From Sulfurimonas sediminis (lineage in GTDB: Bacteria > Campylobacterota > Campylobacteria > Campylobacterales > Sulfurimonadaceae): a DNA stretch of 64,000 bases. The position numbers were made by a program, and so were the translations under genes. Below, piece by piece: positions 27,135-58,795 of this stretch. The notes under the pieces are model-generated. The model had not been told where the DNA came from and searched no databases. It worked only from the letters and a program-made list of their open reading frames with translations. Numbering within the stretch: position 1 is the stretch's first letter; each line of letters begins with the position of its first letter. The DNA is taken from assembly GCF_014905115.1 (NCBI RefSeq), contig NZ_CP041235.1, positions 1,736,001-1,800,000 on the forward strand, in the 5' to 3' direction.

Positions 27135-28389
27135 CACCACAATCCTCTAAAAACTCAATTTTAATATTTGAGCGATAGAGTCATCCAAATCCCATCTATT
27201 GTTGATGAGTTGTTCTTGTATAGATTTTGCACCATTAAGGTGTAAAATATTCAAAATCATACTTCTAAGAATAGTCATTAAAAATGGATTTAAATGACAA
27301 TTATGAGCATCTTCTAAAAGTGAATTATCTTTGTATTGATGCATGGTTTCCACTTTCCAATGGTGTAAAATTTTATTGTGAAAGAATTCTGCACTTTCAT
27401 GAAAATTTGCAATACAGAATTGAATTCTAGTGCTATTAGTAATCTCGCCAGTTTTATGATTTGTTGACTCTACTTTTTTTATAACTTTTATTATTGAGCG
27501 AATATGAGTTATGCCATTATGATAAAAAGTAGTTGGTTGATATACAAACACCTTCCTATTAATCCATTCATTAGATTGTTGGACAGGTTTAGCCTTGTAA
27601 ATATTTGTCGGTTTTATATCTCTTGAAATTTCATCTATTTTATCAAGTAAGGTTTTTTGATTATCTTTTACCTTGGCAATATATTTTGAACCACTATTTT
27701 CGATAGCATCAAGAGTTTTTTTGGGTATTCATTGCATCAAAAGTAAAGATAAATTCATCTCCCAATTCCCCTATCATAGCCTGAAGGGCAGGTATTTCAT
27801 TCGACTTCTCTGCTATTTGTTGATGAGCAATTATTACCCCTATCTCAGATAAAACAGCACCAACTACTTCTATTGATCTCTTATCTTTGTATTTGCTGCC
27901 ATTCATAACCTTGCCATCTACGCTCAGGTGCTTTCCTCTTGTATCGACATAGGTTCTTATCCATTTCCTAAAAACAACTTCAACTTCTTGGCTATCAACT
28001 TTCGCTAACACATCAGAAACCAAACTTTTCTTTGGTGTTAATATAAACTCTACACCTAATAATCTTTTAACTTGTTCTTTTTGAATATGCTTCTCTATCC
28101 AAATAGATATTTGCTTATAGTCAGTTGCTCCCATCAATCCAGCCAATACTGAAAGATATAAAATATGTTCTAGTCGGTGTCTTTTACCTTGAGGTTTCCG
28201 ATAGTCTGTCACCTCTGAAAACAATTTTAAAAGTTGATTTGATTGGGCTTGATCTGCATACCCTCTTATAGAACGCTTTTTCGCTAATTTTTCTCTTGTT
28301 TTTGTTGCCATATGTAATCACTTTAGTTTTTTAGAGTTTAAGCAATTATTGTTCTTCTTTTAAATTCCTGTTTTTTTAGGATTGGGGTG
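27135..28389 (-). mobile_element. ISAs1-type insertion sequence IS-A, copy 1 (1255 bp)
   Basis: The boundaries come from comparison with copy 2 at 55008-56262: both are 1255 bases and differ at only two bases that I could find. The ends are imperfect inverted repeats (CACCACAATCCT at the left, CACCCCAATCCT read inward from the right; 17 of 20 match). A 9-base target duplication flanks it: AAATGAAAG at 27126-27134 and AAATGAAAT at 28390-28398, one mismatch. It inserted into the last codons of the histidine kinase gene. Confidence 0.93.
27147..28311 (-). pseudogene. ISAs1-family DDE transposase, frame broken at an A7 run (copy 1)
   Basis: Frame 1 (28311 to 27709) encodes 200 residues, ending TFDAMNTQKNS at a stop just after A7 (27716-27722). 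The second frame continues TLDAIENSGSKYIAKVKDNQ and stays open to 27147. Removing one A would give one 387-residue protein, normal for the family. Catalytic residues are present on both sides: Asp in LSVDGKVMNGS, Asp in FTFDAMN and Glu in HHWKVETMH. Copy 2 has the same break, so this may be slippage-dependent expression of an active enzyme rather than decay. Confidence 0.85.
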
Positions 28390-54533: not shown

Positions 54534-55005
54534 ATGCCAAAAAAAACAGAACACAAAATCATAAAAACCCGTCATATCAAAGAAGCATTACAAACCTTTG
54601 CACAGGAGAATTTTATTCTTCCCTCAGAGTGTGACTTTGTTATAAACAAAACACAAACATATATAAAAAGCAATACAAACGCTTCTTTTGAACTCTACAG
54701 CAAAGAGATACAGGAAAAATACAAAGATAAAGAAAAAATACTCAATGAGCATGTGGAATTTCATCAACTCTATACCATTACCCTTATGAAAAAAGAAAAA
54801 AAAGATCTTGAACTTGAATATACTATAGATTTTTCAAAATTTTTCACACATCCTTTTTTGATACTGTCGCCGGATTCAAAAATTCCCTATAAATCACACC
54901 AGCCTGTTGAGTTGTTAAAAATACTCTTTAGAGAATGCAACAAAATCAAAGCGTATCATAAAATACTTGTGAACATCTTTGATGAAGAGATGAAAAAAGC
55001 TCTGA
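54534..55005 (+). pseudogene. fapA: FapA-like (DUF342) gene, 5' fragment interrupted by two IS elements
   Basis: The first 157 codons of a 559-codon gene. It begins MPKKTEHKIIKTRHIKEALQ and reads to FDEEMKKAL, after which IS-A copy 2 enters; the present ORF ends at 55037 with IS-encoded residues. Joined to 57588-58795 it gives a continuous frame (KKAL then KILVKYIYAG). This N-terminal region is the variable part of FapA-like proteins. FapA family members influence flagellar assembly in Vibrio and may bind polysaccharide. The intact protein is certainly not made from this locus. Confidence 0.85.
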
Positions 55006-55007
55006 TA

Positions 55008-56262
55008 CACCACAATCCTCTAAAAACTCAATTTTAATATTTGAGCGATAGAGTCATCCAAATCCCATCTATTGTTGATGAGTTGTTCTTGTATAGATTT
55101 TGCACCATTAAGGTGTAAAATATTCAAAATCATACTTCTAAGAATAGTCATTAAAAATGGATTTAAATGACAATTATGAGCATCTTCTAAAAGTGAATTA
55201 TCTTTGTATTGATGCATGGTTTCCACTTTCCAATGGTGTAAAATTTTATTGTGAAAGAATTCTGCACTTTCATGAAAATTTGCAATACAGAATTGAATTC
55301 TAGTGCTATTAGTAATCTCGCCAGTTTTATGATTTGTTGACTCTACTTTTTTTATAACTTTTATTATTGAGCGAATATGAGTTATGCCATTATGATAAAA
55401 AGTAGTTGGTTGATATACAAACACCTTCCTATTAATCCATTCATTAGATTGTTGGACAGGTTTAGCCTTGTAAATATTTGTCGGTTTTATATCTCTTGAA
55501 ATTTCATCTATTTTATCAAGTAAGGTTTTTTGATTATCTTTTACCTTGGCAATATATTTTGAACCACTATTTTCGATAGCATCAAGAGTTTTTTTGGGTA
55601 TTCATTGCATCAAAAGTAAAGATAAATTCATCTCCCAATTCCCCTATCATAGCCTGAAGGGCAGGTATTTCATTCGACTTCTCTGCTATTTGTTGATGAG
55701 CAATTATTACCCCTATCTCAGATAAAACAGCACCAACTACTTCTATTGATCTCTTATCTTTGTATTTGCTGCCATTCATAACCTTGCCATCTACGCTCAG
55801 GTGCTTCCCTGTTGTATCGACATAGGTTCTTATCCATTTCCTAAAAACAACTTCAACTTCTTGGCTATCAACTTTCGCTAACACATCAGAAACCAAACTT
55901 TTCTTTGGTGTTAATATAAACTCTACACCTAATAATCTTTTAACTTGTTCTTTTTGAATATGCTTCTCTATCCAAATAGATATTTGCTTATAGTCAGTTG
56001 CTCCCATCAATCCAGCCAATACTGAAAGATATAAAATATGTTCTAGTCGGTGTCTTTTACCTTGAGGTTTCCGATAGTCTGTCACCTCTGAAAACAATTT
56101 TAAAAGTTGATTTGATTGGGCTTGATCTGCATACCCTCTTATAGAACGCTTTTTCGCTAATTTTTCTCTTGTTTTTGTTGCCATATGTAATCACTTTAGT
56201 TTTTTAGAGTTTAAGCAATTATTGTTCTTCTTTTAAATTCCTGTTTTTTTAGGATTGGGGTG
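55008..56262 (-). mobile_element. ISAs1-type insertion sequence IS-A, copy 2 (1255 bp)
   Basis: Near-identical to 27135-28389 and in the same orientation. It has a perfect 9-base target duplication, GCTCTGATA, at 54999-55007 and 56263-56271. The last two bases of this target belong to the end of IS-B, so IS-A landed on the fapA/IS-B junction after IS-B was in place. Confidence 0.93.
55020..56184 (-). pseudogene. ISAs1-family DDE transposase, frame broken at an A7 run (copy 2)
   Basis: Same arrangement as copy 1: 200 residues (56184 to 55582) ending after QKNS, then the second frame to 55020. The A7 tract has the same length. One residue differs from copy 1 (VDTTGKH here, VDTRGKH there). The identical break in two independently inserted copies argues that the frameshifted form is mobile. 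Confidence 0.85.
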
Positions 56263-56269
56263 GCTCTGA

Positions 56270-57578
56270 TAGGTAAATCCCACGAAAAATAAAACAAATC
56301 TTAATCAATATAGTTTGATTCAATCAATTGAACACTAAAATCATCACGATAAAGAGCATTTCTTTTAATATCTGCCATTGTAGTTTTACCGGTTAGGAGT
56401 ACCTTTTTATCTTTGTTCTCATTTAAAAACAACTGATAAAGATTAACAGTAAAACTTCTAAGAATAGCTATAGAGAAAGGCTCTTTATATGCTATATGGT
56501 CATCTTCTTCAGTAAGCATATCTAAGTGATAGTGATATGTTTCCACTCTCCAATGTTGCAGTATCTTTTGAAGAAACTCTTTTGCAGTTGTTTTAAAGTT
56601 AGCCATTAAATATTGAGTTGAAATTGTAACTTCACCAGTCTGTGCATTTGTTAATGTTTTCGTCACTTTAATGAGTGATTGAATATTTTGAAAGTTCTCA
56701 TGATACATAACTAAATCAGCACTTTTATTTTGAAAAACTTCTACTTTTCGAGAGACTCTTTTGTTGTTTTCAGTTAAATAGCTATCTTCATCATCAACTC
56801 TATCTGTAGGCTGATTAAACTCTTCTATGGTCTTTATAGCTTTCTCTTTGAGGTGTTTCTGGTTATCTTTGAGTTTTGCTATATATCTGTTACCTTGCTC
56901 ATCAATAGTGTTGAGAATCTCTGATTGAGTAAGCAGTGCATCAAAGGAAAATATCTGTCCTTCATTGCTAAAAATATTATCGTTTAAAACCTCTTTGAGT
57001 GCAGTAATTTCGCTACTCTTATTTTTATCTAAAAACTTGTGAGCAAACACTATTTTTATATCTTTATCCAAGATATTTAGTATTGCTTTATGTCTTTCCT
57101 GTGTGTATTGACCATTCACGTCGCTACCTCTCAGCCACTTCCCGTCAATAGCAATATTTTCTTGTGCAATGAATGGAAAAAAGAACTCTCTAAATACTTT
57201 TTCCAAAGCATTATTATCTGTGTTTATCAATAAACGATGATATGTTGATTTGGAAGGAATCGTTATCTCTTCTTTATCAAAAATCTCTTTGAGTATTGCA
57301 TTGTCTTTGTTATATATCATCCATGAAAATATATCCTTAAAAGTTGTATTTCCTTTGATAAGTGCAAAAAGTGTCATGAAAAGAACTTCGTGCAATGGAT
57401 ATTCTATCTTCCCTGTATCTACTCTATAGTCTGGGATACTTTTTAGCGATTCAAGTAAGGCTTTTGTGCGTGTTAATTTGATGGTAAACTCCTTGTTTTA
57501 GGAGTCTAAGCAATATTTCTTCCAGTTCTTTTGAATCTATTGATTAAGATTTATTTTATTTTTCGTGGGATTTACCTA
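56270..57578 (-). mobile_element. ISAs1-type insertion sequence IS-B (1309 bp), first insertion into fapA
   Basis: The ends are inverted repeats of 41 bases with one mismatch (56270-56310 and 57538-57578), starting TAGGTAAATCCCACG. The 9-base target duplication AAGCTCTGA is at 57579-57587 on the right and 54997-55005 on the left, the left copy now separated by IS-A copy 2. Its left edge is shared with the target duplication of IS-A copy 2. Confidence 0.92.
56301..57482 (-). CDS. ISAs1-family DDE transposase of IS-B, start codon apparently ATC
   Basis: The first standard start in frame is TTG at 57395, giving 364 residues (LHEVLFMTLFALIKGNT). The family N-terminus, however, continues upstream: TRTKALLESLKSIPDYRVDTGKIEYP is encoded before it. 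The frame opens after a TAA, with AAGGAG placed 6 bases before ATC at 57482, where an ATG is expected. Asp in AIDGKWLRGS, Asp in SFDALLTQ and Glu in HWRVETYHYH complete the DDE triad. The element may be silenced by an ATG-to-ATC change, or start weakly on ATC or the inner TTG. Confidence 0.85.
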   Translation of the reverse strand: MKLTRTKALLESLKSIPDYRVDTGKIEYPLHEVLFMTLFALIKGNTTFKDIFSWMIYNKDNAILKEIFDKEEITIPSKSTYHRLLINTDNNALEKVFREFFFPFIAQENIAIDGKWLRGSDVNGQYTQERHKAILNILDKDIKIVFAHKFLDKNKSSEITALKEVLNDNIFSNEGQIFSFDALLTQSEILNTIDEQGNRYIAKLKDNQKHLKEKAIKTIEEFNQPTDRVDDEDSYLTENNKRVSRKVEVFQNKSADLVMYHENFQNIQSLIKVTKTLTNAQTGEVTISTQYLMANFKTTAKEFLQKILQHWRVETYHYHLDMLTEEDDHIAYKEPFSIAILRSFTVNLYQLFLNENKDKKVLLTGKTTMADIKRNALYRDDFSVQLIESNYID

Positions 57579-57587
57579 AAGCTCTGA

Positions 57588-58795
57588 AAATTTTAGTGAA
57601 ATACATATATGCCGGCAAATTTGTCAAACGTGTCAAAATTCCTCTGTTTGAGGGAATAGAGCCTGTCCTCACACGTCCTGGTAAACTTATTTTTTGGTTT
57701 AAAGAAAAAGAACATACAGGCGAAGTTATCGAAGTCGAGGAAAACGAACTTCTTGTGGAGTATAAAAAGCCTGTATACGGACAAAACGGGCTCAATGCTT
57801 TTGGTGAATATCTAGACGCAAATTTTGCCAACAACATGGATGACCTGCAGGCAGATGTTGATGAAAAATCTATTGCAATACAGGAAAATGCAACATCAAA
57901 AAAATACATAAGCAAGATACGCGGATATGTCCATTATGACGGCAAAGAACTTCTTGTTGACAATCGCATAAAAGTCAGTGAAATCACAAAGCACAAAGAT
58001 CTTGTAGAAGATCTCGAAGACAATAATATTGAAATAGTGGTGACGCAGCATGATACGGCAAGGGATACCATCAAAGAAGGGGTGACGCTTGTTTCAGAGA
58101 GAATACATGTAAACGGTTTTGTGGGAGCAAAAAGCCGTCTTGAAGCGATAACCCTTGAAATTGAGGGAGCTACCCACCAAGACTCACTCCAGTATGCGAA
58201 ATATGCAACCATTAACAGGCATAAAGGTACATTACGATGCCATGAGGGGAAAATTTCTCTGCTTGAAGGTGGTGTGGTACACGCAACCGCTGTAGAAATT
58301 GACTCTTCCATAGGGGGTGCTGTTTATGCCCAGGATGTTACCATCAAGCATGTGAAAAACAATTTAAAAGTTTACGCTTCTAATTCTATTACTGTCCGGC
58401 TTGTATCCGGGGAAGACAACCTCTTTAAAATAAACTACCGTGATGTCCCGGTAGTGCAAAGCAAACTGCAGTTTATAGACAAAGATATCAAGGAGCTCAG
58501 ATATAAATTAGAAGGAGCAAAAAGACACAGCTTAGGTAAAGTTGAAGAGTTGGAAAAAGAGATTACACGCCTTAAAAAAGAAAAAGAGGCAATACACAAC
58601 TCCTACAAAAATGCAAAAATTACTGTCCAAGAACCTTTCAAAGGTTTAAACAACATTATCTTTACCATTGACAATGCGCATGAAATAGCCTACAAAACAG
58701 AGGCAAAATCCTATCCTCCTTTTTATCTTGAAATACAAGAAAACATCATCACCCTTCATCCTGTCGCAAAATCCATAGTTATCGAAGAAAAATAG
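57588..58795 (+). pseudogene. fapA: FapA-like (DUF342) gene, 3' fragment
   Basis: The C-terminal 402 residues of the interrupted gene. It contains the DUF342 right-handed beta region (NRIKVSEITKHKDLVEDL, VTLVSERIHVNGFVGAKSRLEA, LEGGVVHATAVEIDSSIGGAVYAQDVTI) and a following coiled coil (LRYKLEGAKRHSLGKVEELEKE), then a beta-rich tail. A GTG at 57596 could restart translation to give 399 residues without the N-terminal domain, but no clear ribosome-binding site precedes it. The sequence shows no further stop or frameshift, so the disruption looks recent. Confidence 0.85.

Follow-up and report, generated by a model that had tools for sequence, protein, structure and literature searches.

The window, i.e. 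the whole stretch of DNA that was analysed (64,000 nucleotides), corresponds to positions 1736001-1800000 of a closed chromosome of 2,320,257 bp from Sulfurimonas, a sulfur-oxidising bacterium. Between positions 54534 and 58795 of the window, a short fapA/DUF342 gene is interrupted by two distinct ISAs1-family elements, called IS-A and IS-B here (Table 1). From left to right, the site consists of the 5' part of the gene, AAGCTCTGATA, IS-A, GCTCTGATA, IS-B, AAGCTCTGA and the 3' part of the gene, and the final two bases of the left GCTCTGATA (54999-55007) are the TA end of IS-B. Element ends and duplications agree base for base with the two-element split of fapA described in the initial annotation; the computed chance of a perfect 9-bp duplication match is ~8e-6 per junction pair.

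Table 1. Features of the interrupted gene (window coordinates) and the further stacked ISAs1 sites (chromosome coordinates).
Feature	Position	Strand	Basis
Short fapA/DUF342 paralogue, 5' part (codons 1 to ~154, upstream of the duplicated target)	54534-54996	+	sequence
Left outer target duplications: AAGCTCTGA at 54997-55005 (IS-B) overlapping GCTCTGATA at 54999-55007 (IS-A)	54997-55007	+	
IS-A, ISAs1 family, 1255 bp, ends CACCACAATCCT / AGGATTGGGGTG	55008-56262	-	
IS-A transposase ORF1, N-terminal part (DDE_Tnp_1-associated and ISAs1), 200 aa ending in ...DAMNTQKNS*	55582-56184	-	
IS-A transposase ORF2, C-terminal part (ISAs1), open region in the +1 frame with respect to ORF1	55020-55598	-	
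A7 run (mRNA CAAAAAAACTCTTGA), passage from ORF1 to ORF2, proposed slippage site	55589-55595	-	
IS-A duplication GCTCTGATA, second copy; IS-B starts with its final TA	56263-56271	+	
IS-B, ISAs1 family, 1309 bp, 41-bp inverted repeats starting TAGGTAAATCCC	56270-57578	-	
IS-B transposase, single intact frame (364 aa from TTG as listed; open frame 398 codons)	56301-57395	-	
Short fapA/DUF342 paralogue, 3' part including AAGCTCTGA at 57579-57587, open to TAG stop	57579-58795	+	
Stack 2: IS-A beside IS-B; 9-mer TACAAAAAG/CTTTTTGTA before, between and after	1694304-1696874		
Stack 3: partial IS-A (end), CAATAGTTG, full IS-A, then IS-B	1819185-1821986		
Stack 4: two IS-B copies; CTGACTAAA(T) three times	829622-832248		
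Stack 5: GGAGATTGA on the outer flanks of two truncated elements, one IS-B and one IS-A	799225-802530		

The two ISAs1 elements

Both elements belong to the ISAs1 family, with which they share the DDE transposase (NF033564), terminal inverted repeats and target duplications of 9-10 bp. The transposase of IS-B scored 150.9 bits on NF033564 (cut-off 70), and its inverted repeats are 98% complementary. Eighteen full copies of IS-B were found in the genome, 13 of them (the window copy included) identical over 1305 bp, and 16 of the 18 are flanked by duplications of 9-10 bp, that of the window copy being masked by IS-A. IS-A is present in 13 full copies, with 11 of 12 end bases matching in its terminal inverted repeats; its 9-bp duplication is perfect in ten copies, matches at 8 of 9 bases in two (L004 and L013) and is masked by IS-B in one (L012). 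The inventory, which combined genome searches with individual loci, thus comprises at least 31 full ISAs1 copies, and both elements appear to have multiplied recently within this chromosome.

Several copies carry individual changes. The IS-A copy in fapA has two substitutions that none of the other full copies shares (55807 and 55811, i.e. element positions 799 and 803, 0-based), which give DTTGKHLS in place of DTRGKHLS next to the LSVDGK motif. A second IS-A copy lies in the window at 27135-28389 (L004), with the imperfect duplication AAATGAAAG / AAATGAAAT. Single-base deletions that shift the frame occur in two full IS-B copies (L033 and L034), both located inside stacks; they may reflect genuine decay or homopolymer errors made when the repeats were assembled.

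The interrupted gene

Removal of both elements and of one copy of each duplication (joining 54534-54996 to 57579-58795) restored a frame of 559 codons plus stop, as had been proposed, which aligned collinearly and gap-free at 93.4% identity with the 559-aa orthologue of JALSKR010000003.1 (L050). The closest matches to the joined protein among the genomes were those of G011 (95%) and G073 (94%), so that the 559-aa orthologues of sister genomes are 93-95% identical and occupy the same, uninterrupted site. In G011, G073 and G002 the orthologue is intact, and the flanking DNA is continuous at this position and contains neither element. Both fragments are free of further damage, and the lineage-private changes in the broken gene (8 nonsynonymous, 14 synonymous) resemble those in relatives with intact genes (10/12 and 14/30). 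Since the branch counts give no sign of relaxed selection and the fragments are undamaged, the loss of the gene is recent, in line with the initial annotation.

The joined protein passed the FapA_N model (flagellar assembly protein A) with 33.1 bits (gathering score 27), in agreement with its designation as FapA-like, and FapA_N is the only model that this short DUF342 paralogue passed. It differs from canonical FapA in being short and divergent, sharing ~27-29% identity with the genome's own long FapA. The latter is the second fapA whose presence had been left to be checked; it is intact, at 876 kb in the same chromosome (646-aa frame, 79 bits on FapA_N), next to a gene that we take by inspection to be ruvA. 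The search covered 134 other Sulfurimonas genomes, many of them incomplete, and a hand count gave a near-full-length orthologue of the short paralogue in only ~69. Judged by these sequence comparisons, the broken gene is a short, dispensable DUF342 paralogue; it is inactivated, and as a gene disruption the case is ordinary. As the long FapA remains intact, the phenotype of the loss is uncertain, and since the short paralogue is also patchy across the genus, the altered motility or surface traits suggested earlier are possible but not indicated; with the short paralogue hit and the canonical gene spared, that suggestion was overstated. The FapA of Vibrio, which acts in flagella assembly, is a binding partner of dephosphorylated EIIAGlc (PMC6877527), and a literature search on FapA together with DUF342 gave nothing relevant. 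Another orthologue of the short gene, with an internal TAA stop, was seen in a different genome (L122, G072:C45:1331-2998).

Order of insertion

Across the whole genome, all 13 full copies of IS-A begin with CACCAC and end with GGGGTG, and all 18 full copies of IS-B begin with TAGG and end with CCTA. Because the ends of both elements are fixed by these other copies, the TA inside the IS-A duplication belongs to IS-B, and IS-A therefore arrived second. The order read earlier from the window alone, i.e. IS-B first with the duplication AAGCTCTGA and IS-A second on the left IS-B junction with a duplication, GCTCTGATA, that includes the TA of IS-B, is thus borne out. In terms of mechanism, IS-B entered the short fapA paralogue at codon ~155, duplicating AAGCTCTGA, and IS-A then entered the left junction of IS-B, duplicating GCTCTGATA by a 9-bp staggered cut that was shifted by 2 bp and straddled the boundary between element and host.

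A split transposase in IS-A

A single continuous transposase frame is usual for the ISAs1 family, without being a strict criterion. IS-A departs from this pattern: its transposase is encoded in two frames that meet at a poly-A run, and all 13 full copies are split at the identical A7. On NF033564, ORF1 alone scored 74.5 bits and the other half 33.2 bits, as compared to 136.4 bits for the fused reading obtained by dropping one A from the run. The slippery run at the frame transition is conserved, being identical (CAAAAAAACTCTTGA) in an otherwise decayed relative in G048 (76% DNA identity), and a separate ISAs1 element of G011 (eight copies) has a run of A8 on the same TQKK codons. In the ISAs1 elements of three further genomes (G060, G103 and G038; L140, L141, L151) the frame breaks in the -1 direction after a neighbouring A-rich NQK stretch. 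A stimulatory RNA structure was not found downstream of the A7 of IS-A (z -0.73).

The IS-A transposase would be made by transcriptional slippage or by ribosomal shifting at A7, with a +1 or -2 shift being needed. Conservation of the split in the 76%-identical relative and its counterpart at the TQKK codons elsewhere imply expression by poly-A slippage, the missing stimulatory fold fits slippage better than ribosomal shifting, and the direction of the required shift likewise makes slippage the likelier route. A 2016 review names the IS1, IS3, IS5 and IS630 families as users of frameshifting and states that no IS with +1 ribosomal frameshifting had been identified by then (PMC5009743). Where a transposase family has A-rich shift sites of the +1 as well as the -1 type, this has been taken to point to transcriptional realignment (Antonov et al., PMC3711429). 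The situation described here resembles this poly-A realignment in DDE_Tnp_1-type transposases in its A-rich shift site and in the occurrence of both variants in one family; it differs in that the text of that study does not mention ISAs1 and in that two different elements use the same TQKK codons, with A7 and A8. The poly-A split would add the ISAs1 family to those with transposase recoding.

Alternatively, the IS-A transposase might be dead and the element mobilised in trans by an intact copy that was lost or went undetected. An intact IS-A frame was indeed not found in the closed genome, the A7 break demands the less common +1/-2 direction, and the relative in G048 is itself decayed. We nevertheless regard trans-mobilisation as doubtful, as the same break is present in all full copies, most of them with clean 9-bp duplications, is retained in G048 and has a counterpart in the separate element of G011, where it falls on the same codons.

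Stacked insertions in the chromosome

As assembled, the chromosome contains five unrelated stacked ISAs1 sites, the window site included (Table 1). In stack 3, the 10-bp duplication of IS-B, TGCAATAGTT, includes the final TG of IS-A; going by these bases, IS-A came first and IS-B second at this site, the mirror image of the order in the window. Stack 5, the deleted middle of which is occupied by an IS3-type element, is inferred from its matching outer flanks only. In total, ~6 second insertions spread over the five sites lie 0-2 bp from an existing ISAs1 junction, and 11 of 35 traceable insertions lie in stacks. Simulations gave 0.0023 expected pile insertions with uniform targets and 0.25 if 1% of the genome is hittable, against the ~6 observed.

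Core information at solo sites was not above the null for IS-A (p 0.83) or for the 9-bp IS-B sites (p 0.69), and a clear shared motif was not found in these solo targets. The core score exceeded the null for the 10-bp IS-B duplication sites (n=5, p 0.006) and for symmetrised IS-A target sites (p 0.008), and the elements may have a weak target preference. Stacking was not seen among the ISAs1 copies of the nearest relative, G011, and in surveys of the genus and the phylum, closed genomes with multiple ISAs1 copies proved too scarce for the stacking test to be run on other relatives.

Discussion

What sets the fapA locus apart is the probable targeting of a junction: it belongs to a set of five stacks, and opposite insertion orders can be read from two of them. 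Given the same stacking at four other sites, the second hit in fapA looks guided by the first rather than coincidental, and the insertion of IS-A at the IS-B junction was probably not an independent random event. We infer, on the basis of one genome, that transposases are drawn to the junction as such: wherever an ISAs1 element has inserted in this genome, its junction would be favoured as the site of the next insertion, be it of IS-A or of IS-B. The attraction might be due, for example, to bound transposase, to end DNA that is bent or was recently repaired, or to a target-capture preference for ISAs1 ends. The account as a whole, i.e. IS-B followed by IS-A in fapA, junction-preferring ISAs1 targeting and an IS-A transposase made via a shift or slippage at A7, appears likely to us. 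On the wider proposition that ISAs1-type transposases target the host/element junctions of earlier ISAs1 insertions reciprocally between elements with different ends and without a strong host motif, thereby seeding stacks in which the second hit in a gene is a consequence of the first, our judgement is evenly balanced.

Stacks would also arise if certain host 9-10-mers were strong ISAs1 targets that are hit repeatedly, irrespective of any earlier insertion. The reused targets in the piles do coincide with the earlier duplication or overlap it by 7-8 bp, and the 10-bp IS-B sites (n=5) carry core information above the null. Such pre-existing hot sites are still a rather unlikely explanation: the 9-bp duplications have no common consensus, this many repeats would by rough reckoning need a genome with only ~100 equally hot sites, and the targets in two piles include terminal bases of an element that are absent from the empty site. 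Coincidence is less probable again. A dead fapA and IS DNA tolerate insertions, and in a genome with at least 31 full ISAs1 copies the stacked junctions could simply be where selection permits hits. Tolerance, however, predicts hits across the whole element and gene and not 0-2 bp from junctions at five sites; a tolerant 1% of the genome leaves the expectation at ~0.25, and the sole insertion resolved within the body of IS-A belongs to the IS1634 family and not to ISAs1. Finally, transposition of IS-A/IS-B pairs as a ready-made compound unit, which the adjacency of the two elements in several places might suggest, was rejected as hardly credible because each pile has its own inner spacer matching the local host flank, the order and orientation of the pairs vary and one pile is IS-B/IS-B.

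Targeting of the ends of mobile elements is known for IS231A, which inserts into Tn4430, for IS4321/IS5075, which insert into Tn21-type ends, and for IS30, which inserts into its own repeats. The proposed junction targeting by the ISAs1 elements resembles these cases in that one element inserts at the end of another that was already there. It differs from them in that the target is the host/element junction, without a clear sequence common to the sites, and in that the relation is reciprocal between two elements with different ends. A literature search on junction targeting gave nothing relevant. IS bursts, gene loss and IS islands are usually modelled with independent insertions; if an insertion makes its own junction a far likelier target, clusters and double disruptions would be self-seeding, and the junction would offer a clean assay of target choice by DDE transposases.

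Other rearrangements of ISAs1 elements

At L016/L014 (G000:C1:66511-69938), an IS1634-family element (~66984-68755) interrupts a copy of IS-A that has the duplication TTGGTAGAC; roughly 400 bp of IS-A (positions 73-472) are duplicated at the insertion. Repeats of 8-514 bp have been reported for IS1634 and IS1549, without a mechanistic model (PMC2266710). In the closest relative, G011, a tandem duplication of ~2.2 kb (99.9%) carries an ISAs1 element (L175, G011:C1:1828300-1833300).
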